NCBI RefSeq assembly: GCF_027023865.1
Contig: NZ_JALVUC010000008.1
Location: forward strand, 1-64,000
Direction of reading: 5' to 3'
Source of the DNA: Thermococcus sp.
GTDB taxonomy: Archaea > Methanobacteriota_B > Thermococci > Thermococcales > Thermococcaceae
DNA: 64,000 nucleotides
Shown here: positions 2,129-16,498 of the stretch, one piece after another
Position numbering within the stretch: the stretch's first letter is position 1
Layout: each line of letters begins with the position of its first letter
The notes under the pieces: generated by a model
What the model was told of the DNA's origin: nothing
Databases searched by the model: none
What the model saw: the letters and a program-made list of their open reading frames with translations, nothing else
Translations under genes and position numbers: made by a program

Positions 2129-3295
2129 TCATCCCTCCTTTGAGAGGAAGTACTTCCTCCCCCTGACCTCGACCATTTGATAAACCTCCCCCTCCCTGAG
2201 GGGCCTTTTTGGCTTCTCAAGCTCGTAGGTCTCGTAGGTCTTCATGTCCATCATCTGAACCTCTCCAAGGGTGATGCTCGTCACCATCGCCTCGCTCCTC
2301 TCGTGCTCAACCGTATCGAGTTCCTCCTGCTTAACCGTCTTCCAATTGAGATGCTTGCCCTCCCCCGTGCTCAGGTTCCTCAGCGAGAGGCCCCTTCCGT
2401 CCACCTTCTCGACCGCATAGACTTTGCCCTTCTTATCGGCCACTATATCGCCCCTCCGGAACTTCGGGATTCTGATGCTCACGCTCGTCCTGTAAGTTTC
2501 CCTGCTAGTCTGCCTGTCAATGCCCACCAGCTCGTAGGCCTCGCTTACCATCCCCCCAAACTTCTCCTTTATAGCCTGGGCGAGCTTTCTCGCGGAGGAC
2601 GTTGACCCCATGTAAAAGTCCACCCCCTCCTCCTTTTCAATCGTGTCCTGGATGAAGCCCATCCGGTCCCTGCGCATTATCTCGTCAACCTTTTCCTCTA
2701 CGAGCTTTCCAATGGCCTTCCTCTCCTCTTCCGTCAGGGGCCTTCCATCGGCGCGGACCTGGAGGACGGCCTCGAAGTAGCCCCCAAGGAACTTAGAACA
2801 GCGCGGGCAGACGGTCTGGCGGACGTAGACGGTGACGTGCTTCCGCTCGTCGTGAAGCTCGCGCTGAAGTTCGTGCGTTTTCGCCTTAACGCGGACCTCG
2901 TAGGTTACTATCGCGGGGAAGTACTCGATATGCCAGTCTATCGGCTGGAATGCAATAACGGCCCTCCCAACCGGAAGATCATCAATATTCTCCAGTTCTT
3001 CCATTGAAGCGACCTCATATTCTCTGATCTTCCCGCTCAGTGAGTCCTCAAGAGTCTCGAGAAGCGCGTTGTCAGCAACTTCAAATATCAACTCCTCAAG
3101 TTCATAGCTCTTTGGGTCAACCCATACTCCCCTCTTCTTGTAGCTCCCACAGTTCTGGCAGAGCTCGGTGTTTATCTCGTCTCCAATTAGAAGGACAGGG
3201 TTCTCCTTGCGGTAGCACACTTGGCAGAGTCCCTCGATTAGAGGACCACCTTCATCCTCGCTTATTCCACATCTGTAGCAGAACCTCTCGCCCAT
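2129..3295 (-). CDS. NMD3-family 60S/50S ribosome export-type protein
   Basis: The protein begins MGERFCYRCG and has two closely spaced zinc-binding cysteine pairs (CYRCG, then CQVC and CQNCG within the first 60 residues), followed by a CPRCSKFLGGYFEA motif. These are typical of archaeal NMD3 homologs. In eukaryotes NMD3 binds the large ribosomal subunit as an export adaptor; in archaea it is taken to act in late large-subunit assembly. The frame is open 51 codons further upstream, but the ATG at 3295 has the GGTGGG ribosome binding site and starts the conserved zinc region, giving 388 residues. It lies 55 bases downstream of the DUF424 gene on the same strand, a pairing that suits a translation-linked operon. 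Confidence 0.8.
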   Translation of the reverse strand: MGERFCYRCGISEDEGGPLIEGLCQVCYRKENPVLLIGDEINTELCQNCGSYKKRGVWVDPKSYELEELIFEVADNALLETLEDSLSGKIREYEVASMEELENIDDLPVGRAVIAFQPIDWHIEYFPAIVTYEVRVKAKTHELQRELHDERKHVTVYVRQTVCPRCSKFLGGYFEAVLQVRADGRPLTEEERKAIGKLVEEKVDEIMRRDRMGFIQDTIEKEEGVDFYMGSTSSARKLAQAIKEKFGGMVSEAYELVGIDRQTSRETYRTSVSIRIPKFRRGDIVADKKGKVYAVEKVDGRGLSLRNLSTGEGKHLNWKTVKQEELDTVEHERSEAMVTSITLGEVQMMDMKTYETYELEKPKRPLREGEVYQMVEVRGRKYFLSKEG

Positions 3296-3350
3296 GTTCC
3301 CACCGGTGGTAAAAACGGGGCCGTGCTTAAAAACGTTGAAGTTATTGGAG

Positions 3351-3650
3351 TCAAAAGAACAGCCGGGCCATCTGAGCGTGTGGAATCCCATCCACGTAGA
3401 GCACTCGATTCCTATCAATGTAGCCAAGCTCAACGGCTTTCGAGACACAGTGCTCTCCCGTAAGGTTGGCTATGGTTGCATCTGCCAAGAGACTTTCCAA
3501 TGCATCCTCCTCCACGAGTTCACCTTTGTAAAATCGTTCTTTGACCTCGAGCTTGATTTCACCCTCCCTGAATGTCTTCCCAAGCAGTTCCTCGTCGCAT
3601 GCCGCCAAAAGAACCTCACCCTGAGTGCGATAGACTTTAACATATATCAC
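3351..3650 (-). CDS. DUF424 family protein
   Basis: This 99-residue protein matches, from memory, the archaeal DUF424 family, small proteins often encoded next to translation factors. The likely start is the GTG at 3650 (VIYVKVYRTQGEV), because GGTGG lies just upstream; the open frame reaches 3725, but the extra N-terminal residues look unlike the family. The protein carries the stretches LLAACDEELLGKTFREG and ANLTGEHCVSKAVELGYI. Its function is not established. It is cotranscribed with NMD3. A damaged copy of its first 20 codons lies at 8341-8400, between the two large protease genes, which records an old tandem duplication. Confidence 0.7.
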   Translation of the reverse strand: MIYVKVYRTQGEVLLAACDEELLGKTFREGEIKLEVKERFYKGELVEEDALESLLADATIANLTGEHCVSKAVELGYIDRNRVLYVDGIPHAQMARLFF

Positions 3651-3724: not shown

Positions 3725-6700
3725 TCAGCCCTCCTTCTGCATGTCCTCGATTGCCCCCTGAAGGAGCCTCACCGCCTTCAGTTCGTGGACGTAGGCCTGC
3801 CTAAGTGGCATTATAAGGCTCGGGTCGCCGAGGTGTATGATTATGTTACCGCCTGCAAGGTCTAGTGCTTTCTGGTAATACTGGGCCGCTGTCTCGTTAA
3901 GACTCTTAGCCTGCTCAAGGATAGTATCGTTGACGCCGAGCTTGAAGGCCTCACTGTAAAGCTTCTCAAACTGCTGGCTGTACATGTTGTAATAGCGGTA
4001 GCCAATGTAGTTAAGGGTGGACAGCGGGATCTGTGGGATAGCGAAGTCTACCTTTATGCTAACCGGTGAAGCGAACTTGACCGTGACAAACAGGTAAACT
4101 GCGTAGGTTTTCTTGACTGTGTACCAGGATATCAAGTGATCCCTGGGTACGACCACAACACTGTTCACCTTGGAGTCCTCTGGGAGGATAATCATCATGG
4201 TGGCGTTTGTTCCGTGGGTGCCGTTAACGGTTAAGCTCACCTGACCCCACTTGATGGAGCTGCTGACTACCTCAGCGTTGCCCTTTACAATGTTGATGCT
4301 CATCTGCTTGGTTGATGTAATTGGCTGGTGGAAAGGTTCGGCGACTTTCTTGACGAAGGTACCCTCATAGTCCTTGTAGTAGGGTGTCACGACCTTTACG
4401 TGGAACTCGACTTCACTATTGGTCGGGGTGTAGTAGAACTGAAGTTCCCCGTTCTCAGCTACGTACTGCCTGCCGTTTATGTAAACGGTTGCCTCACCGT
4501 GGATTGGCATCATTGTTGCCGCGTCGAGTATCTTAAGGGTCATGAGGCTGGCTTTTCCCATGACAAGTGAACCCATAAGGGCAACGTAGGTCTCCGGCAG
4601 TCCAGCCTGCATTATGACCGGAGAGTACGAGAGGGCTATTCCAGTATCCGCATCGTTGAGGCCCACAACTCCAAGGTAGGTTCCGTCGTCAGGGAGATTT
4701 ACATTGTAGTCGATGCTCGCGGAGGAGCCTAATGGGAGGGTGAAATTAGATGTTTCAGGGGTTATCTGCCCGTTGTCGCTGAGAATCTGGTGGTAGTAAA
4801 TGTAGCTCATGTTGGCAACCGGAACGTAGTATCCATGCACAACAGTCAGGTAATACCCTGGGGCCGGCATGAACTTCTCAAAGCTTTCGTAGGAAGTTGG
4901 ACCAATCTGGTTAGTGTAAATGCGAGTCGCGTTCCTTCCCAATACCCCGCTGTTCAGGTCTGCCATGAGTGCATTCCAAGTGGAGTAATACAACACGTAG
5001 AGGTCAAGGTCTGCACTTTTGTTCTCCGGCGCGGTTATGCCAGTTCTGAGATAATAAACCTTCCGGCCGCTCGTTGCGTTTATGATGTCCACAATCTTCC
5101 ACTGGCCCTGGTTGATTGTTTCAAGGAATCCTATAGCCCTATCAAGTCTGCCGAGACCGTAGCCGAAGGGTGTAACGTTTACACTGCTCATTGTGTTGGT
5201 ATAGGTGGCGCTGACCGTGTAGTTTCCTGGTCCGTTGACATCTTTGTAAATCCGCTCCGGTGTAACAGTAACGCCCTCAAGCTGGACGTCAATGCTATAG
5301 TGGGACAGCTCATAGCCGGTTCTGGCGTAGCTGCTGACACTAGAGTAGGCGGTTACCTCCCAAGTTCCCGGCTGCGGGTTGGGGATCTCCCAAGTGTAGT
5401 TAAGGTATGGGGTTCCAGCACCGACGAAGTAGTACCCGGGGACCCCAATGTACTTGACAATACCACGCGGGGTAGCTATAACCGGCCTAACCCTGCCCAT
5501 GGGGACACCGTTCTCATCAACGGGAACGCTCATGGTTATCTTGAGGAGTTTGGTTCCAGCAGGGACGTCGACGTAGTAGTGCTTGGCCTGACCCGATAAC
5601 TCAGTATCGCTTAAGTGTCCGGTCGGGGCGTCGTTCTTGTTTATTGGAACGGTCACTATAACTGGAACGGCGCCGTCGATGTAACTGGTGCTCGGATCAT
5701 CGATGTAGACGTAGCCAACGTAAGTTCCAGGTTTCTGAAGCTTTGAGTAGTCAATTGTAACGTAGACGAGACCCGTGGTGGTGTAAAATCCTGACTCACC
5801 CATACCGATGGCAGCATGAACGGCCTTCTTGTTGACCATGAGCCAGGGTTCACTTGTGAATATCCTGTAGGTACCACTTACGAGGTTCAAGTCACCGGAG
5901 GCCCTGTTGTAATCCATCCCGTAGATGTATATCGGGACGGCAACGGGTCTCTCGTTCCTGAGGTAAACACCCCTATAGAGGTACGGAAGGTTGTGTGCAA
6001 GTTGGAACCAGCCGTCGAAGAGTATGTTTGCAACGAGAGGAAGCTCTTTCTCGCCTAGAGCGTTCTGGTAGGGTGCAAAGGTCGTCCCTGCATAGATGTA
6101 GGTGGTCTTCTCCTTGCTGAGCTTGATAAGCTCCTGTATTGCCTTGTCAACATTGATGAGACCGTAGCCTTGGTCTATCGGGAGGGCACCGCTCATCGGA
6201 TTGGCGGATAGTTCAAGTGCCCTCTTTATCATGAAGGGATCATAGGTCAGGTTGTGAGCCTTGGCATAGCTGATGAGAAGTGCCGCGGCACCGCTGACGT
6301 GCGGGGTGGCCATCGAGGTTCCGTCCCAGAAGTCCGATGCCCAAGTTCCGTAATAGCCAAGAGACCATATCGGCAGGCTTGAGAACACGAACTCACCTGG
6401 GGCCATGACGTCAGGCTTGACCATGCCGTCAAGGCGTGGCCCTCTGCTGGAGAAGCTGGCCGGACCGGTGTAGACGTCTTTAAGACCATAGAAGAAGCTC
6501 CAGCTGGTTCCGTTTCTTAGGGCACCAACGGTTATAACGAAGTCAGCATCGCCAGGTGAACCTACTGTGGTGGTGCTGGGACCTGAGTTGCCGGCGGCTA
6601 CCACGAAGGTGACGCCAAACCGCTCGGTGAGCAGGTCGGCGTAGTAGTTCTCGGGGGACTCAAGGCCGTCATTGTATCCGCTCCAGAGACCGCCGAGGCT

Positions 6701-8224
6701 CATGCTTATGACGTTTGCCCCTTTTAGAGTGGCGTCGATCATTCCATAGATTATCCACGAGTCCTGTCCATAGCCAATACTCGAGAGTGACTTAAACTCC
6801 ATAAGTTGCGCACCGGGAGCAACACCCTCAAGGCCTGCGAAGTAGGTTCCAGGCAGGCCGTAACCGGCTATAGTTCCTGAGACATGGGTGCCGTGCTGGC
6901 CGCCGTCCCATCCGAAAACAGCGGTGTTCCCATTGAGACCGCAGAAGACGACGCTGTTGTAGATGGTGCCATTGGCAAGCTCAGTGGGTGAAGCTGAGCC
7001 TTCCATGAAGGTCACATAGTACGGGTTGTTAACTGAACCCGGTCCGAGGAGGAGGTAAGCACCAGTCCTGTCAAAGGATCTAGCCTGCTTAGCTCTACTC
7101 AGATTAACATCGTAGGTATAGTTCCCTCCGTTTGGAACGGTCATCATTTTCATAAGGAGAGTGCCGTTAAGTTCAACTGGAGTCCCGTTTTGGAAAATTA
7201 TCGCAACCTGCGTGTTGGCGGGGGTCAGGTTGAGCTGGAGGGGAACCGGGTAGAAGTAGGTGTCGTTGTTTGGATCAACGAGAACCAGATAAACCTCATC
7301 GTAGTTGTGGTCGAAGTTTATGTCAAAGTATCTCTCAGGAAGGAACCCGAAGCGGTAAGTTCCATTGGTGACGTTGACGTCTCCAAAATCGATAGTAACA
7401 TTAACCTCATTAAGGGTCGTGTACTCACTCGGTCTCATGACTAAGGTGGCGTAGGGACCCCAGTCTATCGTGACGTTGTTGAGAACGATGTCTACGGTGC
7501 CATTGACGACTTTACTTGAGTTAAATGTATACTTAAGGTACGCGTTGCCCTCACCTGTCTCATCAAGCCAGTAGATGATCTTTCTCCTCCCGTCAGGGGT
7601 CTGCTGGAGGTAGGGCTGGGCGACGTCGGCACCGGTGTCTATGACGGCAACAACGGCACCTGCACCGGTCACGTTGTACTCTTCCCTGGCCTGTGGGGCA
7701 TCGATTGAGTACATATCCCAGTCAAAGGGATTATACCCGCCCGCTCCCGTTGAGGTGAGGGTATTTATCGGCGCCTTGGGATAGGCCTCGGGCTTCATAG
7801 GCTTCGGGAGTTTTATTGTCCTGTCTTCCCAGACGTAGGCGAGGCCTTTCATGGACTTGAGAAGAGGGAGCTTATCAACGGGGAGCGTGGCTACTATGAA
7901 ATCGTACTTGGGTTTGCTTATCGGGGCGATCCTAGCTCCAAGGTTCTTCAACTCTTTAATAACCAGAGCACTGTAACCCCTCTGGGGAGCCATTATTAAG
8001 CGGACTTCCTTCTTATTTGATGCCGTTAGTGTCCCGTGGAGTATACCCAAATACTTTGCAACGTTAGGATTCAGTTCCTGGAGCGTCAGAGGGCCATTGG
8101 GGGTTGATACCACGCGGGCCTGTGAGTTAGAAGTAGACGTTGCTGCGGTGTATGGCATAAACACCGGGACTACTGACAGCAACATTACAGCCGCTACAAA
8201 AAGGCTCAAAACCTTTCGATTCAT
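3725..8224 (-). CDS. Secreted pyrolysin-like subtilisin (peptidase S8), 1499 residues
   Basis: This is a large extracellular serine protease. An N-terminal signal peptide (MNRKVLSLFVAAVMLLS, then small residues) is followed by a propeptide and a subtilisin domain with Asp196 (VVAVIDTGAD), His444 (GGQHGTHVSG), oxyanion Asn546 (VVAAGNSGPS) and Ser637 (DGTSMATPHVSG). The nearly 250-residue gap between Asp and His is an insert of the kind known from pyrolysin. About 760 residues of beta-rich C-terminal extension follow. The last 98 residues are helical and match the C-terminus of the adjacent C1A protease at 82 of 98 positions. Many N-x-S/T sites suggest N-glycosylation. It probably digests external protein for peptide fermentation. 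The start has a CTCC-complement ribosome site (GGAGGTG) and a TATA element about 55 bases upstream. Confidence 0.9.
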   Translation of the reverse strand: MNRKVLSLFVAAVMLLSVVPVFMPYTAATSTSNSQARVVSTPNGPLTLQELNPNVAKYLGILHGTLTASNKKEVRLIMAPQRGYSALVIKELKNLGARIAPISKPKYDFIVATLPVDKLPLLKSMKGLAYVWEDRTIKLPKPMKPEAYPKAPINTLTSTGAGGYNPFDWDMYSIDAPQAREEYNVTGAGAVVAVIDTGADVAQPYLQQTPDGRRKIIYWLDETGEGNAYLKYTFNSSKVVNGTVDIVLNNVTIDWGPYATLVMRPSEYTTLNEVNVTIDFGDVNVTNGTYRFGFLPERYFDINFDHNYDEVYLVLVDPNNDTYFYPVPLQLNLTPANTQVAIIFQNGTPVELNGTLLMKMMTVPNGGNYTYDVNLSRAKQARSFDRTGAYLLLGPGSVNNPYYVTFMEGSASPTELANGTIYNSVVFCGLNGNTAVFGWDGGQHGTHVSGTIAGYGLPGTYFAGLEGVAPGAQLMEFKSLSSIGYGQDSWIIYGMIDATLKGANVISMSLGGLWSGYNDGLESPENYYADLLTERFGVTFVVAAGNSGPSTTTVGSPGDADFVITVGALRNGTSWSFFYGLKDVYTGPASFSSRGPRLDGMVKPDVMAPGEFVFSSLPIWSLGYYGTWASDFWDGTSMATPHVSGAAALLISYAKAHNLTYDPFMIKRALELSANPMSGALPIDQGYGLINVDKAIQELIKLSKEKTTYIYAGTTFAPYQNALGEKELPLVANILFDGWFQLAHNLPYLYRGVYLRNERPVAVPIYIYGMDYNRASGDLNLVSGTYRIFTSEPWLMVNKKAVHAAIGMGESGFYTTTGLVYVTIDYSKLQKPGTYVGYVYIDDPSTSYIDGAVPVIVTVPINKNDAPTGHLSDTELSGQAKHYYVDVPAGTKLLKITMSVPVDENGVPMGRVRPVIATPRGIVKYIGVPGYYFVGAGTPYLNYTWEIPNPQPGTWEVTAYSSVSSYARTGYELSHYSIDVQLEGVTVTPERIYKDVNGPGNYTVSATYTNTMSSVNVTPFGYGLGRLDRAIGFLETINQGQWKIVDIINATSGRKVYYLRTGITAPENKSADLDLYVLYYSTWNALMADLNSGVLGRNATRIYTNQIGPTSYESFEKFMPAPGYYLTVVHGYYVPVANMSYIYYHQILSDNGQITPETSNFTLPLGSSASIDYNVNLPDDGTYLGVVGLNDADTGIALSYSPVIMQAGLPETYVALMGSLVMGKASLMTLKILDAATMMPIHGEATVYINGRQYVAENGELQFYYTPTNSEVEFHVKVVTPYYKDYEGTFVKKVAEPFHQPITSTKQMSINIVKGNAEVVSSSIKWGQVSLTVNGTHGTNATMMIILPEDSKVNSVVVVPRDHLISWYTVKKTYAVYLFVTVKFASPVSIKVDFAIPQIPLSTLNYIGYRYYNMYSQQFEKLYSEAFKLGVNDTILEQAKSLNETAAQYYQKALDLAGGNIIIHLGDPSLIMPLRQAYVHELKAVRLLQGAIEDMQKEG

Positions 8225-8340
8225 TCAAACACCTCCTGTAGTAATGGGCAACACTACTGTAAATCTTGCATTAATATAAATATTTCGCTCATGTAAGGAG
8301 AATAAAAGGCCTCAATAACTATAAAACATCCTCTATGACT
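8225..8340 (-). promoter_or_regulatory. Promoter and leader of the S8 protease gene, duplicated at 12038-12150
   Basis: On the minus strand a TATA element (ATATTTATATT, 8274-8285) lies about 55 bases before the ATG, and GGAGGTG precedes the start. The whole block aligns with the region upstream of the C1A protease gene: shared stretches include AACACCTCC, CAACACTACTGT, ATATAAATATTTCG and AAAAGGCCTCAAT. The match ends near 8335. The two proteases are therefore likely to be expressed under similar control. Confidence 0.6.
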
Positions 8341-8400
8341 TATTCGTCGCATGCCGCCAAAAGAACCTCACCTTGGATGCGGTGGATTTTAACGTATATC
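8341..8400 (-). pseudogene. Relic of the 5' end of the DUF424 gene
   Basis: Read on the minus strand from 8399, this gives IYVKIHRIQGEVLLAACDE, close to the start of the intact DUF424 protein at 3650 (IYVKVYRTQGEVLLAACDE). The GTG start codon has become GGG and similarity stops abruptly after about 19 codons. The bases between this relic and the C1A gene's stop also match the spacer between the intact DUF424 gene and the S8 gene (for example CCTTAAAAGCTTG). It is a non-coding scar of tandem duplication. Confidence 0.75.
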
Positions 8401-8482
8401 CCCCACCGGGGAGAAAAACGCGCTGAGCCTTAAAAGCTTGCTCATTATAAAATAAAGAAAATTAGAAGAGATTTAGAGGGCA

Positions 8483-11400
8483 TCAGCCCTCCTTCTGCAT
8501 GTCCTCGATTGCCTTCTGGAGGAGCTGTACTGCATACATTTCATTGAGATATGCTTTTCTGAGAGGCACTATAAGGCTCGGGTCACTGAGGTGTATGATT
8601 ATGTTACCACCGGTGAGGTCGAGTGCCTTCTGATAATACTGGGCCGCGGTCTCGTTAAGACTCTTAGCCTGCTGAAGTATCGTGTCGTTAACACCAAGCT
8701 TGACGGCCTCACTGTAAAGATTCTCAAACCGCTGGCTGTACATGTTGTAATAGCGGTAGCCAATAAAGTTAAGGGTGTTTATGGTTATCATGGGCTTAAC
8801 CGGAACCTCCGTGTATCCATCCGCCTCGATTGTCGGGTCCTCCTTGAGGACAACGAAGACGATGCCGCTCTGGACGTAGTAGTAGCCAAGTGGGTTGTTC
8901 TCATCGGTTGTAAGCTGCACCTTCTGGCCGTTCTTCCAGACATAGATGTCGGTTATGTTGATGTTCCTGAGGGCAACCACTGCAACACCGTGCTCGCCGA
9001 TCTTAACATCCGCCTTTATGGTAACTGAGTAGAGATCCTTACTGCCTTCGCTCTTGACCTTCCGGGTGCTAACCACGGCGTTAGTGAGGGTGGCATTCCA
9101 CGATGCCGCGAGGCTTACGTTGTTGTTTCCGCTGATAACGTTCTGAACGGCGGTTGCATTAACGACAATCGAGGGCACGTTGTTGACGAGCGGAACCTGA
9201 ACCTCAACGTTCCCGGTGGAGGTTGAAACGTTGGCGACTACTGTGGAGCCGTTGGCGGTAACTTTGGCAGAGCCACCTATTACTCCAACGGTAACGTTCT
9301 GGGTTTCGGTGTTAACCTCCGTGATCTTTGCTCTAGTGTGGACGACAAAGTGGACCTCTGCCATGCCCGTGTTGTTGGCAGTATCATCGGCTGTAACCGT
9401 AAGGGTATATGTACCGCTTGCAAGGCTGAGTGGGGCCTCATAGAGACCGGTTGTGTTGTTGTAATCCAAGGAGATAGTCTTTCCATCGACGGTTGCGGTA
9501 ACGTTGGTTATGTTGAGAACATCTACGACTTTCACGGAGAGTTCAAGTGTGCTGGTGTTGTAGACAGTCGGCTCGGGGCTCTTTATGTAGACCATCGGCT
9601 CCTTTATGGTCACAACTCTCTGGGGCAGTGCAACTTCCTTGCCGTTTGGATAGACAACGACCACAGTGTAGTTGTAGGTTCCTGCCGGTAGCTGGAGGGC
9701 CTGGTCAATTCCCGTGCCGTAGTAGTAGAAGCCTCCCTCTTCGGGTGTCAACTGGTATTCCTTGCCACCAATGAGCACATAAGCGCCCTCAAGTGGCACT
9801 ATGCTGGCAACGTCGACTTTGAAACTTCCAAAGTTAACGGACGAATTGCTTGGGAGCGAAAGCGGACCGTAGTTGGCTATCGGAACGGTGGCGGTAACAA
9901 CAGTTTGACCCCCATCGGGGATGGTGACCTTGCTGGTGTTGGCCGCTATCGGGTACTTGCCCCAAGGTGTCTGAAGGAGTATGGTGAAGTTGTACACATA
10001 GCCGGTTATATTGTCCTTGAGAAGGTCATGTGGGGCAACAAAGAACGTGGCGTAGTATGGAGTTACGTTGGGATGGGTGGATATGTAGTAAGTTACGTTC
10101 CAAATGGCGTTGCTTATATCAAAGGCCATTGGGCTGTTCGGGAACGGGTGGTCCTGCGGAAGGTCTGCGGCGGTTGTCTTGTTGGTTATGTCGCTCCACA
10201 GGTAGTCGCTCCAGAAGTCGAGGAAGTTGTGCTCCCATGTGTCATTGCTTACCATTACTCCAACTGGGATACCGGCTGGGATGAACTGAGTGTTACCATA
10301 CACCCCATCGACAACCTCTCCCCTAACCGGGTGTTTTATGCCAACTACTGCCATAAGGTCCGGTGTGTAGTTGGCTGCCTTTGGCACGTAGACAAAGGCT
10401 GAGCTTCCACCCCAAGATACCGGCCACTCTATCTGGTACTGAACCGGGAAGATTCCATCGACTGTGGTGTTGAAGTACTCACCGGCACTGCGAACGGCTT
10501 GGTACGAGAAGTACCAGTATCCGTTGTATCCCCAGTCCGTACCCCACGAGTTCACCATGAGGAGGGCTCCCTGTCCGTCTGGGGTCTGGGCAGTGTCATC
10601 GTACCCAACTATTGTGACGGCGTGTCCGCCCTGCCAGTTTTGGTAGTAGTTGTTAAAGTTCAGGTAAGGTGCCCTTCCTTGGAGGTATTCACCGATGGGC
10701 ACGTAGTGTATCATCCACTCAAAGTTTGCAAGGGTGAACAGTGCATCAAAGCCGTTGTTGAGGAACCATCTCTCACCGTTCACTGAATAGGTCGAGAGGT
10801 AGAACGTGGCGTTGGTTATCCAGCTCTGGTTGCTGATAAAGCTGGCGTTGACGGCAGCCTCAAGCTGTCCGGCCGCTACATACACCGGCTCGTTGAGATT
10901 AATTCCAAGCTTGTTCTGGAGGACGTCTTTCATTAAGTCAACCGACATGTTGCCCTCTTCGATCATCCTCAAAAGCGCTGCAGTATTGCCGGTTGTGGCA
11001 GATGCCCAGACGTTATAGTTCCTTTGAGCGTAGTCAAGGAGGTCTTCTACGGTCCACGAGGCGTATGAACCGTTGGTCCAATACTCCTGCCCGAACTTGT
11101 TAGCATAATGCGCGTAGAACTCAAGGTACCCAAGGAACTGTCCGGGCTGGCCAAGGAATTGGAAGCTTGGCAGGACGTTTATTGTTGTCTGGAGAACGTA
11201 TCCTTTCGCGAGGAGTGCCTTGGTGTAGTTCCACTGGGTAGCGTTGGTGAAATTCAGGTAGTACCACTGACCCGGTATCTGGTACAGCTCGGGGGTACCT
11301 GGTTCGTAATACTGCCACGCATACATGGCGCTTGTGCCGCTGTTGTGTGCGGCTTCTTCCCACTGGGTGAGGTTGGGCCAGACCCAAGCGTAGTTAGAGG

Positions 11401-12037
11401 GATCTCCATACGGGCCGAGAACATAAAGCGGGAAGTCATTAAGGGGAACCGCACCAATGGTGGATATGAGGTTCATCGCGTCCCAGGGGTTACTCCCCTC
11501 ATCAGCACCACCATTGATGAGGTTGTAGGTAAATGTTGGGTTCATGATATCGCTGGCAGTACTCGGGTGAGGGTTGTTCCTCCACCAGTTCAGCATGTAG
11601 GTCCATACATAATAGGTTGAACTCCAAGCGTTGCACGAGCCAACGTAGCCCTGGTTCCCAATGGGTGGGAGGTAAAGACTGTTGTTCATTTCTGCCGGCA
11701 GGGTTGTGGGAACACTTGAAGTCCCGTTCGGGAGAAGGATGCTGGCGCTTATTGGATTAAAGGGTGCATTTTTGACTGCGGTCTCAAAAGCATTCTGAGT
11801 CAGGGGGTTAAAGTGGAATCCAACTACCTGCTCGTACTGGTCTAAGGGTGCCTTTAGAGCACCCGTCCTGTGAGCCATCAATGGCATCATGTCGTTTGTG
11901 AACCTCTGCGGGAGGGTGACTTTGGTGGTAGCTCTAACCTCAGGGAATACAGTAGCGGAGGCAAGTGTAGCGCCCATTGAAATTACTGCCGCCAACATCA
12001 CTACCGCGACTAAAAGGCTCAAAGCCTTCCGATTCAT
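8483..12037 (-). CDS. Secreted papain-like cysteine protease (peptidase C1A), 1184 residues
   Basis: After a signal peptide (MNRKALSLLVAVVMLAAVIS) comes a C1A catalytic domain with oxyanion Gln129, nucleophile Cys135 (NQGYVGSCNAWS), His472 (GGHAVTIVGYDD) and Asn496 (MVNSWGTDWGYNGYW). The spacing between Cys and His is about 340 residues, longer than in papain, so there is a large insert. The C-terminal half has beta-rich, Ig-like repeats and ends in the same 98-residue helical domain as the S8 protease. The frame is open to 12400, but the ATG at 12037 is preceded by GGAGGTG and starts a signal peptide matching its neighbour. It is probably an extracellular or surface-bound scavenging protease. 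The pairing of two catalytic classes within the same flanking modules is unusual. Confidence 0.87.
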   Translation of the reverse strand: MNRKALSLLVAVVMLAAVISMGATLASATVFPEVRATTKVTLPQRFTNDMMPLMAHRTGALKAPLDQYEQVVGFHFNPLTQNAFETAVKNAPFNPISASILLPNGTSSVPTTLPAEMNNSLYLPPIGNQGYVGSCNAWSSTYYVWTYMLNWWRNNPHPSTASDIMNPTFTYNLINGGADEGSNPWDAMNLISTIGAVPLNDFPLYVLGPYGDPSNYAWVWPNLTQWEEAAHNSGTSAMYAWQYYEPGTPELYQIPGQWYYLNFTNATQWNYTKALLAKGYVLQTTINVLPSFQFLGQPGQFLGYLEFYAHYANKFGQEYWTNGSYASWTVEDLLDYAQRNYNVWASATTGNTAALLRMIEEGNMSVDLMKDVLQNKLGINLNEPVYVAAGQLEAAVNASFISNQSWITNATFYLSTYSVNGERWFLNNGFDALFTLANFEWMIHYVPIGEYLQGRAPYLNFNNYYQNWQGGHAVTIVGYDDTAQTPDGQGALLMVNSWGTDWGYNGYWYFSYQAVRSAGEYFNTTVDGIFPVQYQIEWPVSWGGSSAFVYVPKAANYTPDLMAVVGIKHPVRGEVVDGVYGNTQFIPAGIPVGVMVSNDTWEHNFLDFWSDYLWSDITNKTTAADLPQDHPFPNSPMAFDISNAIWNVTYYISTHPNVTPYYATFFVAPHDLLKDNITGYVYNFTILLQTPWGKYPIAANTSKVTIPDGGQTVVTATVPIANYGPLSLPSNSSVNFGSFKVDVASIVPLEGAYVLIGGKEYQLTPEEGGFYYYGTGIDQALQLPAGTYNYTVVVVYPNGKEVALPQRVVTIKEPMVYIKSPEPTVYNTSTLELSVKVVDVLNITNVTATVDGKTISLDYNNTTGLYEAPLSLASGTYTLTVTADDTANNTGMAEVHFVVHTRAKITEVNTETQNVTVGVIGGSAKVTANGSTVVANVSTSTGNVEVQVPLVNNVPSIVVNATAVQNVISGNNNVSLAASWNATLTNAVVSTRKVKSEGSKDLYSVTIKADVKIGEHGVAVVALRNINITDIYVWKNGQKVQLTTDENNPLGYYYVQSGIVFVVLKEDPTIEADGYTEVPVKPMITINTLNFIGYRYYNMYSQRFENLYSEAVKLGVNDTILQQAKSLNETAAQYYQKALDLTGGNIIIHLSDPSLIVPLRKAYLNEMYAVQLLQKAIEDMQKEG

Positions 12038-12150
12038 TCGAACACCTCCGATCATAATGGTCAACACTACTGTGAATTCAGCATGGATATAAATATTTCG
12101 TTCACAGTGGGGGATAAAAGGCCTCAATGACCATAAAACATCCCTCCACG
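12038..12150 (-). promoter_or_regulatory. Promoter and leader of the C1A protease gene
   Basis: A minus-strand TATA element (ATATTTATATCC, about 12087-12099) sits roughly 55 bases before the ATG, with GGAGGTG just upstream of the start. The block aligns with 8225-8340 upstream of the S8 protease. The rest of the gap to the next plus-strand gene (12151-12329) contains no gene I can support; GGCATAAAAC at about 12281-12290 may be the TATA element of that gene. Confidence 0.55.
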
Positions 12151-12329
12151 GCCCATATCTACCGGTAACGCTCGATAGATTCGTAAGATATCCAAAGAAG
12201 TGTGTACCCCCTTGAGAGAGTGAGCATGAGCTAAATGTCCCATTTGTGAGGACATCAAGTATTCTCCAGGAACCTACCAAAAGGCATAAAACGGGCGAAA
12301 GCAGAGAAGAACGGCGGATGGTGAGACCA

Positions 12330-13004
12330 ATGAAAAGAAGAGATCTCGTTCTAACTATCACCCTGATTCTGCTTATAGCAGCCGCTGGTGTGGTCCTCAA
12401 TTACAGCACGGAGCACTACAAAGGCGGTGAGATTTACGAGGCCGCAAACCATGCCTACGGTCTTCTTGTCAAGGGATTCAACGTCACGATAACTGTAAAA
12501 ACTGTGAACGGGAGCATTATCAGCGGCACCCTCTTCAGTGTCCAGGGTTCGACTATATACATAATAAAGGATGGAAAAGTGCTGAGCATTGGGGGGCCAA
12601 GCTCAACAATGGAGGAGATAAAGGCTGAGGAGATACACATCTCCTATAAAGGAAAGGTCTACGTCTATGATCTCCCACCCCAACTGGGAAAGCTCGGTGA
12701 TATAATAGATAACCTCAAGGTTCCGGCTTACTCGGAGAGGTTCGGCGGGACTATCTACATCGAGGGCAACATAAGCCCGATAACCCTCGGTATGCTGAAG
12801 TACAAGGCGGACTACAAGTCCTACGGCTCCCTAACTATAAACCAGATGAGTTCAAACGGTGCCATAATCACCGCTAACAGGGTTCCGCTGAGCTTTTTAA
12901 AGGAATACCTAAGTGGGTACAGGGTTTACATGTATGGCATCCTCTACGTGAACTCGAACGAGAGGAACCTGAACCTCAAGCTCCTTGAGGTGAGGACTGG
13001 ATGA
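12330..13004 (+). CDS. Uncharacterised membrane-anchored protein
   Basis: I do not recognise this 224-residue protein. It starts with a positively charged MKRRD and a single hydrophobic segment (about residues 6-24), then an extracytoplasmic soluble region rich in beta-type residues (ITVKTVNGSIISGTLFSVQ, a possible OB-like or SH3-like barrel). The ATG at 12330 has GGTGAG four bases upstream; an earlier in-frame ATG at 12318 is possible. It overlaps the next gene by 4 bases, the first link of a four-gene chain to 16498. The context suggests a partner of the membrane proteins that follow, perhaps in assembling a surface glycan, but this is inference. Confidence 0.6.
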   Translation: MKRRDLVLTITLILLIAAAGVVLNYSTEHYKGGEIYEAANHAYGLLVKGFNVTITVKTVNGSIISGTLFSVQGSTIYIIKDGKVLSIGGPSSTMEEIKAEEIHISYKGKVYVYDLPPQLGKLGDIIDNLKVPAYSERFGGTIYIEGNISPITLGMLKYKADYKSYGSLTINQMSSNGAIITANRVPLSFLKEYLSGYRVYMYGILYVNSNERNLNLKLLEVRTG

Positions 13005-13999
13005 AGGGACTGCCCCTACTGATTCCAGTGGCTTTCATAACGTTCATAGCGATAGGACTTGCCGAACCCAAGACGATAGCCGTTGGGACTGCCTTTGCCA
13101 TAGCGATGGTCCTTGGAATATACTGGGGTGATGGAATTGAATGGGAAGATCAAGGCCTGAGGTTCAGGGATGAGTATGCGGTCTGGGCCTTTTGGGGGTC
13201 AATAGGAATAATCGCCCTTCAAATCCTCCTGCTCGGAAAGGTGCCTCTCCTCGACCCGGCTATAAGGACCCACCTCCTGCCTGAACTGACAGCCCTCACC
13301 TACTTCCTCGGAGTCCCGTCGAGCGTATACCTCTTCCTCAAGGGAAAGCGCTACTCCCTCCTCTACCCTTTCATCGTTGCCCTCTACGCCTACAGGACCC
13401 CGGTTCTAGTTGACCTGCTGGCTATAGGCTCGGCCTACTACGAGAGACTGCGCTCCGAGGGAAAGCTTAAGCCAGTCCACGTAGTGGCTATACTCATGGG
13501 CGTCCTCATTATGGGGGCTGTGATGACGGAAATGCGGGGACAGGGCATTTCAAGCCTCTGGACGAGGGTGCAAAGTTCTACCTCGGTCCTCGACGTGATA
13601 GTCTGGCGCGGGGACTGGGCAGGTACTTACCATGGGGAACTCCAATGGCTCGGAGTCAGCTCATACTTTGAGGGGGGTTACTCCCCAAGGGGGCTTGTGG
13701 CGAAGTTCCTCTACGTCCACACCGGTGTGACGATAACCCCTACTCTACTCGGGGGGATGTACCTTGACTTTGGGGTGTTTGCAATCTTAGAGGGCCTCCT
13801 CTTGGGGCTTTACTATGGTATGATACAGAACGCCCGGAACCCGGTCACGCTGTCCCTCTACTACGCGACCCTAGCGTATGGGCTGGTGGGGGTTGAGACC
13901 GGGATACTCGACCTCCCAGTTTATCTGCTGTTTCTGATCGGAGCCTACATCTTGGTGAAGGGATGGCAGAGAAGGAGGGCGACGCGTGAGGCCGTCTGA
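13001..13999 (+). CDS. Polytopic membrane protein, possible oligosaccharide polymerase-like
   Basis: This protein of 332 residues has about ten hydrophobic segments and a long loop (residues about 175-245) with several charged and aromatic residues (TEMRGQGISSLWTRVQ and YFEGGYSPRGLVAKF). That topology, with one large external loop in the second half, resembles Wzy/O-antigen polymerase-type proteins. No catalytic motif can be named. Its ATG lies within the stop of the previous gene (ATGA overlap), and its end overlaps the next gene by 14 bases, so the three are translated as one unit. The next protein has a similar ending, so the two may be divergent paralogs. Confidence 0.6.
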   Translation: MKGLPLLIPVAFITFIAIGLAEPKTIAVGTAFAIAMVLGIYWGDGIEWEDQGLRFRDEYAVWAFWGSIGIIALQILLLGKVPLLDPAIRTHLLPELTALTYFLGVPSSVYLFLKGKRYSLLYPFIVALYAYRTPVLVDLLAIGSAYYERLRSEGKLKPVHVVAILMGVLIMGAVMTEMRGQGISSLWTRVQSSTSVLDVIVWRGDWAGTYHGELQWLGVSSYFEGGYSPRGLVAKFLYVHTGVTITPTLLGGMYLDFGVFAILEGLLLGLYYGMIQNARNPVTLSLYYATLAYGLVGVETGILDLPVYLLFLIGAYILVKGWQRRRATREAV

Positions 14000-15098
14000 T
14001 GCGGCGTTTGCAGTGGTATGGGCATATCTCGGAGCGGCCCTTACTGGGAAGCTCATCTACTCGGACATACTCGGAAAACCCCTTGTTGCCCCTGCAGTTT
14101 ATGCCGTCGTATTCCTCCTCACGGTCATGGCATCGTACGTGCTCTGGGGCAAGAGCAATTCCATGATTCGCTGGAGAGAAGCCCTCTACCTTGGTCTTAC
14201 CCTCCTGTTCCTCATTCCCCTAGGGCCAGTTTATTTTCTCGCGGGCATCCCCGCCATGGGGCTGGCCATTTGGCTCCTAAGAAAGGCGGTATTCCTGGGG
14301 AGGGCCAGGAGGATAGGAATTATTGGGGGGGTTATAGCCGTAGCACTCTTCTCCATTGGCATAGTCGCCTTTGGCGTCCCGCTGATGAAGCCCTGGCTGA
14401 GGTACACGGTAGCGAGCGTTCCCTTTCTGGCCGCGGGGGATGTTTTGATAATCGCCATCGGGGCGTACCCCTCCCCCTGGCTCATGCTCCTCGGACTCGT
14501 GATAGCCATCGTAGGAGCTTCTAGGACGGTCGGAATAGGGGTTCTGACGGCTTACATACTCGCCGAAGCCTACGGGGGCATCTCCCTTAGGGCGTTCGTG
14601 AAGAAGAAAAGCCTGCTGATCCTGACGATTTTTCTCTTCGCTGCGATGCTCCTAGCGCGATACTGGGTAACAAGGCACCTCTACCCCGACTGGAGTCTCG
14701 GACTCATTGGAACGCTTTTTTACAGGGTTGGCTCAACCTACACCGTCTACGAGCACCTTTTTGAGTGGGGAATGCCCTTCGGAAATCACATCCTCCTCTT
14801 CCAGAGTGACCCCACTGGCTACGTTGGCCACCTCTTCGGCAGGGATGTCGGCTACACTTATTCACTCTTCGGCCAGCCGGCCTACGATTTTGGGATAATC
14901 GGGATTGTAGAGGCGGTTTTTCTCGGGGTGCTCCTAAGGGAGGCGGACCGCTCGGCAGTAACCGGGACCTTCGCCTTCACCCTCCTCGTCCTCATGACGG
15001 AGATAGGTATAGAGGGTGCCTTCCTATCGGCCTTATCCTACGCGGCGTTCCTCGGGATAAAGTTTGATATGGGTGATGCAGGATGGAGAAAAAGGTGA
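13986..15098 (+). CDS. Polytopic membrane protein, possible paralog of the preceding one
   Basis: This protein of 370 residues is almost wholly hydrophobic apart from a loop around residues 225-305 (RHLYPDWSLGLIGTLF, GNHILLFQSDPTGYVGH). Its closing part, YDFGIIGIVEAVFLGVLL, parallels LDFGVFAILEGLLLGLYY in the upstream protein and suggests a shared origin. Possible role: polymerase or flippase-like step in surface polysaccharide assembly, by topology only. It starts 14 bases inside the upstream gene and its last 16 bases overlap the glycosyltransferase gene. No close family could be recognised. Confidence 0.6.
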   Translation: MRPSDAAFAVVWAYLGAALTGKLIYSDILGKPLVAPAVYAVVFLLTVMASYVLWGKSNSMIRWREALYLGLTLLFLIPLGPVYFLAGIPAMGLAIWLLRKAVFLGRARRIGIIGGVIAVALFSIGIVAFGVPLMKPWLRYTVASVPFLAAGDVLIIAIGAYPSPWLMLLGLVIAIVGASRTVGIGVLTAYILAEAYGGISLRAFVKKKSLLILTIFLFAAMLLARYWVTRHLYPDWSLGLIGTLFYRVGSTYTVYEHLFEWGMPFGNHILLFQSDPTGYVGHLFGRDVGYTYSLFGQPAYDFGIIGIVEAVFLGVLLREADRSAVTGTFAFTLLVLMTEIGIEGAFLSALSYAAFLGIKFDMGDAGWRKR

Positions 15099-16498
15099 CG
15101 GTTATCCTAATCTTCGCCTCCGCACTGTTGCTCCAGCTGTTCTCGCTTCCCCCCAATGACACGCTGACCTACGACGGGGCACTCTACATTGATATAGCCA
15201 GGAGCCTCACGCACGGCATCTCTAACTTCACCTATCAAGGGATATACATGATGTACCGCCCCCCTCTCTACCCGTACACACTTTCGCTCTTCTACCACTT
15301 CATCCACGAACCGCTGAGCCAGCTGACCGTTGCTAGGCTCGTTTCGGCGGTCTCTTTTGCCCTCACCGCCGTCGTTACGTACCTGCTCGCCCAAGGGATG
15401 TTCCGGAGCGAGGTTAAAGCCCTCGCCGCCGTGGGGTTCTTCATCTTCAATCCACTGGCCTTCACTATGGGGACCAGGGAGCTTGTCCACAGTGAGTTCA
15501 CGTTCTTCTACACGCTCGCGGTTTATCTCTTTTATACCGGGAAAAAGAGCGGGAGAGGGATGAGAATCTACGGGGCGTTCATTTCAGCGGGTCTGGCAAT
15601 ACTCACAAGGTACACTGGGCTTTCGATAATAGCGGTCTTCTTAGCATACTTATGGTTCACTGAGGACTGGAGATGGATTAAGAGAAGAGAGTACTGGATA
15701 GGGTTTGGGATTCTCCTCATGACACTGCTCCCCTGGTTCTACCTTGGGCACGTTCACTATGGAGGGGTTTTCAGACCCTTCAGTATTGCCTCAAGGGTTG
15801 TAACCTTGGACAGACCGGTTTCGGTGTCGAACTACTTCCACCTCCTTCTGAAGGACATGGGGCGCGTCCTGCCCGCCATAGCAGCCATAGGCTTCCTCAG
15901 GTTGAAGAAGGATGACGAAGGTTGGTTGCTGACAAGCTGGCTCTTCATAGGTTTGATGGGGATACTAACGGTAACCCACAAGGAGACGCGTTTCATCACG
16001 TTCCTAGCACCTGCAATTGCATTGATGGCGGTGGAGGGAGTTGAGCTTGCCGTGGATGCCATCTCAGAGGCACTCAGGCGGTTGGGAAAAGAGTCGGGGG
16101 TCAGGAAGAGAACCGTCCTTGTCGCTGGAATAGCATTGCTGGTGCTGATCCCCGTGGCATCGAGCGCCCACAGTCTGCACGAGCGGTGGAACATGGAGGG
16201 GGCGGCCGAAGCGACGGTTCTATCGAGGATTTCAGCAGAGCATCCAGCGGAGAGTCTTCTAGTCTCGCCGGGTCTTTACACGATGGCCGGGTTCTACTAT
16301 CCCCATGCGAGGGTTGACATGGCTCTAGATAGAAAAACGGTGCTCCAGAGGGTCAGTGAGGGTTACTATGGAGTCATAATCCTCAAGGAACCCTCAAATC
16401 ACCTTAACATCGAGGAGAGCGGACGGTACGTCCTAACCGAGGAGTTCTACAATGGAAAGTTCAGAATCTACCTCTTGAAAAAGAACAAGGAGCGCTAA
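15083..16498 (+). CDS. GT39/PMT-type membrane glycosyltransferase
   Basis: This 471-residue protein has the layout of the ArnT/PMT-like dolichyl-phosphate-sugar glycosyltransferases: a first membrane helix, then an acidic first external loop (NDTLTYDGALYIDIARSL) with the candidate catalytic Asp, about ten more hydrophobic segments, and a soluble C-terminal domain from about residue 375. The motif TRELVHSEFTFFYTLAVYLF and later ILTRYTGLSII also fit. Such enzymes move a lipid-linked sugar to protein, lipid or polymer on the outer face of the membrane. It closes the overlapping cluster 12330-16498, giving that cluster its likely glycan theme. The specific substrate is unknown. Confidence 0.75.
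   Translation: MEKKVTVILIFASALLLQLFSLPPNDTLTYDGALYIDIARSLTHGISNFTYQGIYMMYRPPLYPYTLSLFYHFIHEPLSQLTVARLVSAVSFALTAVVTYLLAQGMFRSEVKALAAVGFFIFNPLAFTMGTRELVHSEFTFFYTLAVYLFYTGKKSGRGMRIYGAFISAGLAILTRYTGLSIIAVFLAYLWFTEDWRWIKRREYWIGFGILLMTLLPWFYLGHVHYGGVFRPFSIASRVVTLDRPVSVSNYFHLLLKDMGRVLPAIAAIGFLRLKKDDEGWLLTSWLFIGLMGILTVTHKETRFITFLAPAIALMAVEGVELAVDAISEALRRLGKESGVRKRTVLVAGIALLVLIPVASSAHSLHERWNMEGAAEATVLSRISAEHPAESLLVSPGLYTMAGFYYPHARVDMALDRKTVLQRVSEGYYGVIILKEPSNHLNIEESGRYVLTEEFYNGKFRIYLLKKNKER

Follow-up and report, generated by a model that had tools for sequence, protein, structure and literature searches.

An exported-protease locus upstream of DUF424 and NMD3 in Thermococcales with recurrent replacement of the catalytic core

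The chromosomal site upstream of the DUF424 and NMD3 genes of Thermococcales is read here as a core-exchange locus. Its product is a giant exported protein whose signal peptide is similar and whose C-terminal module is homologous across the order, with cores of differing types in between; in some close relatives, the difference is confined to the core. Core replacement is a recurrent property of this site across Thermococcales, not peculiar to the pair of proteases in the window (the whole 64,000-nucleotide stretch of Thermococcus sp. DNA analysed here). To the complete reading, which includes the recombination, the origin of the tandem in the window and the docking of the module, we assign a probability of about 0.85.

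Gene content and catalytic domains

The window encodes an S8 subtilase and a C1A papain-like protease side by side (Table 1). The two genes are adjacent and on the same strand, as stated in the preliminary description of this DNA. Both ORFs are intact. The ORF of the C1A gene as delimited mechanically begins earlier, at a TTG; the ATG start used here has GGAGGTG before it.

The match to PF00082 and the Asp, His and Ser motifs place the first protein in MEROPS family S8, and solved subtilases match it at 3e-25. The second presents the Peptidase_C1 profile and the Cys, His and Asn residues of the C1A proteases; its PF00112 score is 24.8 bits for a cut-off of 20.7, the profile covering the His-Asn part only, while the C135 motif was read by eye and cathepsins and papain match weakly. 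For both proteins, the catalytic residues are motif positions taken from the sequence.

Divergent from the proteases, the region 12246-16498 contains surface glycan genes, namely two O-antigen-polymerase-like genes and a PMT-like glycosyltransferase. The second O-antigen-polymerase-like gene is fast-evolving, and part of the glycan cluster is missing beside the protease in several relatives.

Table 1. Coordinates of the protease genes, their parts and their neighbours in the window
Feature	Position	Strand	Description
NMD3-family gene	2129..3304	(-)	Pfam PF04981 7.4e-52; second fixed neighbour of the protease locus
DUF424 gene, intact	3354..3650	(-)	Pfam PF04242 1.8e-33; fixed downstream neighbour of the protease locus; present in 86/94 genomes
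S8 subtilase gene	3725..8224	(-)	1499 aa, type alpha core; Pfam PF00082 7e-44; D196/H444/S637
C-terminal helical module, S8 protein	3728..4021	(-)	residues 1402-1499; AlphaFold2 four helices, pLDDT 88
S8 catalytic domain	6161..7666	(-)	Pfam residues 187-688
Promoter copy of S8 gene	8225..8331	(-)	TATA-like element 8287-8274, Shine-Dalgarno 8236-8230
Junction	8332..8343	(-)	12 bp, ATAAGTCATAGA; joins the DUF424 remnant and the second promoter copy
DUF424 5'-end remnant	8344..8400	(-)	19 codons, IYVKIHRIQGEVLLAACDE then stop; in-frame match to the intact DUF424 start; between the two proteases
C1A papain-like protease gene	8483..12037	(-)	1184 aa from ATG; Pfam PF00112 2.8e-05; C135/H472/N496
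C-terminal helical module, C1A protein	8486..8779	(-)	residues 1087-1184; 82/98 identical to the S8 copy, DNA 85%
C1A catalytic region used for searches	10448..11752	(-)	residues 96-530
Promoter copy of C1A gene	12038..12143	(-)	TATA-like CGAAATATTTATAT at 12100-12087, Shine-Dalgarno 12049-12043; ~80% identical to the S8 promoter copy

Shared ends and the tandem scar

The count of 82 agreements in the last 98 residues, made by eye in the preliminary description, was recovered exactly, and BLASTP aligned 84 identical positions in 103 (E 8e-49). The signal peptides, already reported as alike, are alignable (24/67, E 5e-4). Between the two ends, the BLASTP comparison of the proteins revealed no significant similarity, and the cores do belong to unrelated families (Pfam Peptidase_S8 and Peptidase_C1). 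All S8 types have a homologous domain just before the module, which C1A does not share; the parts common to both classes are therefore the signal peptide and the module alone.

The homology exceeds the coding ends, reaching the promoter, the 3' flank and the start of DUF424, which had been missed. At the 5' side, about 107 nt upstream together with the signal-peptide codons represent 161 nt at 80% identity, and both promoter copies have the TATA-like CGAAATATTTATAT and the Shine-Dalgarno GGAGGTG. At the 3' side, the homology starts with the module and takes in the first 57 nt of the neighbouring DUF424 gene (80% over 439 columns), with about 140 bp downstream in common. A single unit, composed of promoter, gene, module, 3' flank and the first 19 DUF424 codons, is repeated head to tail. 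The copy of the promoter, module, 3' flank and truncated DUF424 located between the proteases is the scar of a tandem duplication.

A comparison of synonymous divergence had been suggested as a check on gene conversion. The dS between the window genes is 0.62 for the module and 0.56 for the signal peptide, which indicates that both ends are similar in age and that no wholesale recent gene conversion has occurred; recent conversion was rejected at these values as the source of the matching ends. At the end of both genes (3728-3765 and 8486-8523), the last ~38 bases through the stop are identical, and the stretch just before them is ~65% identical. These identical bases may represent either a short conversion tract or a tight constraint.

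Census of the locus

A search for DUF424 in 94 Thermococcales genomes (one genome per species, many of them drafts) found the gene in 86, and the DNA upstream of each was read. A module protein is present upstream at 62 of the 86 loci, mostly as the next gene, with one further gene between in some genera; the other 24 present other genes there, or a contig edge. The 62 module loci comprise 54 with S8, 4 with C1A only, 2 with the module only, 1 cut by the contig end, and the window, which carries both an alpha S8 and C1A. Four S8 core types were recognised, alpha (25 loci besides the window), beta (21), gamma (5) and delta (3), and with C1A there are at least five types, the core measuring roughly 1000-2200 residues between the signal peptide and the module. 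No second tandem was found among the 86 loci. In addition, C1A cores occur elsewhere in Thermococcales genomes, in frames inside and outside the module-hit set.

The two module-only loci (L079:4989-5366 and L119; genomes G077 and G074) encode a signal peptide and the module, and the catalytic core is absent. At the DUF424 locus L124 (G029), the S8 alpha gene is apparently split, giving frames of 884 aa and 481 aa, the latter with the module.

Core exchange between close relatives

Conserved ends and a different middle were found at the same locus in close relatives. Loci L040 (G028, S8 alpha) and L041 (G024, C1A) present 91.8% DNA identity until 82 nt into the gene; across the cores, of about 4.2 and 2.9 kb, there is no DNA identity, and the match resumes, at 91.4%, 15 nt before the module. 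In L034 and L035 (alpha and delta), the flanking DNA is 93.9% and 96.0% identical on either side of the differing cores. The pairs L035/L063 (delta/beta), L100/L103 (beta/alpha) and L120/L124 (gamma/alpha) present the same breakpoint pattern as L040/L041.

No detectable fit was found between core type and the species tree of 59 tips, which was built from DUF424, NMD3 and the oxidoreductase, all genes linked to the locus. Core type changes 27 times on this tree, for a mean of 28.6 in shuffled data, and 132 of 500 shuffles gave a number equal to or below the observed one. Ten path-disjoint close pairs on the tree differ in core. Core types differ in 15 of the 22 pairs whose flank identity is at least 95%. 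Across these 15, the modules are between 0.36 and 0.96 identical, which places some breakpoints inside the module or past it. The module is in fact often swapped together with the core; the ends are thus not strictly constant, a point against the core-exchange reading. For L034/L035 and L033/L034, retention of the module fits, since its dS is close to those of DUF424 and NMD3.

The exchange may proceed when chromosomal DNA of other Thermococcales enters and recombines homologously at the shared ends and flanks, which would replace the core; the shared ends and the conserved flanks would serve as long homology arms. DNA uptake followed by a double crossover seems the likely route. Work cited in PMC12713403 documents homologous integration, natural competence and DNA-bearing vesicles in members of the Thermococcales.

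The preliminary description had proposed a tandem duplication in which one core was replaced. The duplication is borne out by its scar, and the replacement must be seen more broadly, as it recurs at the site across Thermococcales and is not a one-off event.

Origin of the tandem

The C1A core of the window shares 80% identity with its counterpart in G049, the nearest sampled species, which has C1A only at the locus. The S8 core is closest to that of the distant G055 (70%), and it is 41% identical to that of the near G066. Each window gene has the closest match to its ends in the other (85% for module DNA, against 69% for the next best), and the dS of ~0.6 between these ends is to be compared with 0.9-1.15 for the flanking genes to G049; for these reasons, the tandem probably arose after the split from G049. 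A recent import of the S8 core was considered and is not demonstrable, because synonymous sites are saturated and the distance to G055 about equals that of the flanking genes.

After this split, a duplication or an unequal exchange at the locus would have put the C1A and S8 alleles side by side. One history, to which we give about even odds, is that the resident C1A gene was tandemly duplicated in the window lineage and that the core of the downstream copy was then replaced by S8 via recombination in the shared ends. The head-to-tail junction with its DUF424 remnant, the C1A gene standing alone in G049 with a core 80% identical, the mutually nearest ends of the window genes and the core-only replacements observed in other genomes all favour it. 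It needs two steps, however, where the joining of existing alleles needs one, and alleles of two species might equally well differ at their ends by a dS of about 0.6.

Since core replacement is recurrent at the site, the joining of two ready-made alleles in tandem is equally possible. In this second history, which we rate a little below an even chance, a single recombination event, unequal or by one crossover, linked the resident C1A allele to an S8 allele contributed by a related strain outside the sample. Different species do carry S8 or C1A alleles at this locus, and one such event would explain why the cores differ as well as why the ends have diverged; on the other hand, neither window copy has close counterparts of its ends in any sampled species (next best module DNA 69%). 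That no exchange took place, both proteases being ordinary and independently inherited, with gene conversion preserving the likeness of a C-terminal domain that they happen to share, is very improbable: the module is common on Thermococcales exoproteins, but the promoter, the 3' flank and the DUF424 fragment are shared as well, the junction contradicts it, dS is 0.56-0.62 at both ends and not near zero, and the cores at this site differ between close relatives.

The C-terminal module

The module, of ~98 residues, was found in 80 of the 94 Thermococcales genomes; 21 genomes from elsewhere in the phylum gave no hit. No family in Pfam or NCBIfam matches it; the absence of a Pfam model agrees with its earlier description as not yet defined. 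As far as the open-access literature and these 94 and 21 genomes go, the module is an undescribed domain, confined to Thermococcales. No copy was found on viruses or plasmids, in collections that may leave out near relatives, and a scan of a genome collection with the module returned one Guaymas MAG only.

The AlphaFold2 model of the module, obtained from three sequences, presents four helices (pLDDT 88, pTM 0.79). Foldseek searches with this model gave no significant fold relative (lowest E values 0.1 for PDB and 0.78 for BFVD). The best PDB hits, helices of multiheme nitrite reductases, were judged non-significant, and weak PDB sequence matches, to TPR designs and over short stretches, were judged to be due to chance.

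The module ends exported S8, C1A, CARDB, SBP_bac_5, GH18 (chitinase), LamG and ThuA-like proteins, and it also occurs alone, in free-standing proteins of 125-150 aa with a signal peptide. Its presence at the end of other secreted enzymes is what the preliminary description had named as support. The contrary outcome named there, an ordinary domain present in all members of both protease families, fails, because some C1A cores lie in open frames that are not among the module hits, and because proteins other than proteases carry the module.

The neighbours of the stand-alone module proteins gave no functional hint; in two genomes (L074:4172-4621 and L077:4729-5121) such proteins adjoin apparent ABC transporter genes. 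The window genome encodes a third module protein (L073:4246-5271, 341 aa), from a family widespread in Thermococcales, and a relative of it (L075) matches ThuA weakly.

A TM-like segment beyond residue 60 is absent, by hydropathy, in 60 of 61 module carriers. The C-terminus of both window proteins is formed by the helical module, and a hydrophobic segment there, as in anchors of the sortase or archaeosortase type, was not found. Surface docking would be the likeliest and simplest role of the module, which may hold exoenzymes at the cell surface; a core placed between the signal peptide and such a module would be both exported and retained. We consider it unlikely that the module instead serves in maturation or folding, as a C-terminal propeptide, chaperone or inhibitor, and is removed by cleavage. 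Removable propeptides are common in subtilases, and free-standing proteins of signal peptide and module exist, but the module is also present on proteins with no need of a protease inhibitor, such as solute-binding proteins and the GH18 protein.

Implications

Beyond the core-exchange reading, a wider proposal is possible, though we hold it tentatively and with the odds somewhat against it. Thermococcales may keep a dedicated site at which the core of a major exported protease is swapped as a cassette, across unrelated catalytic classes, between a standard export signal and a docking module; selection would keep the swapping fast, and the module would be a general socket for exoenzymes. If so, the selection could come from changing protein food, or from protease inhibitors and surface conflicts.

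The locus offers natural and repeated domain-swap experiments in hyperthermophiles, as well as a testable case for the drivers of protease turnover in these archaea, and the module could serve as a cell-surface tag. The tandem of the window is a rare snapshot, with two alternative cores in one cell.

Comparison with known systems

The window S8 may be compared with pyrolysin and stetterlysin, which belong to an archaeal S8 protease group of Pyrococcus and Thermococcus (PMC9549277); a pyrolysin homologue is listed in the genome paper of T. gammatolerans (PMC2718504). What that account of the thermophilic pyrolysins says of their make-up differs in that, in the part concerned, neither a shared C-terminal module nor a core exchange at one locus is described (PMC9549277). 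The thiol protease of Pyrococcus sp./Thermococcus kodakarensis KOD1 (Morikawa 1994, cited in PMC12713403), likened to the window C1A by type only, is also a cysteine-type enzyme from Thermococcales, and T. gammatolerans is noted as having no thiol protease (PMC2718504).

The VARTIG loci (PMC8416519) are also from Thermococcales and involve a large exported protein and in situ recombination between species. They differ in that a C-terminal Ig domain varies, an RNase III-like gene adjoins and the C-terminus has a DNNxxxGG motif, whereas in the window locus the C-terminus is shared, the centre varies and the neighbours are DUF424 and NMD3. The window proteins end in MQKEG, next to DUF424, NMD3 and an oxidoreductase; neither an arCOG07710-type Ig protein, nor DNNxxxGG, nor an RNase III-like neighbour (PMC8416519) was found for them.

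The closest parallel may be the exchange of the H antigen in flagellin (fliC), which shares with the present locus the conserved gene ends, an unrelated or highly diverged middle, the fixed position and the recombination in the ends (PMC7018530). In the flagellin model, the core between conserved ends moves via recombination inside those ends (PMC7018530). The filament domains of flagellin have here an export signal and a helical module in their place, and the middle, a structural antigen there, is here an enzyme whose catalytic class may change (PMC7018530). Surface antigens are known to have the middle of the gene replaced while its ends stay constant; at this locus whole enzyme classes change within one gene that keeps its export and C-terminal portions. 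By analogy, then, and judged from the open-access literature, with a prior description possible elsewhere, the site upstream of DUF424 and NMD3 may be seen as a case of "constant ends, variable core", as in flagellin, here with exchanged enzyme classes.
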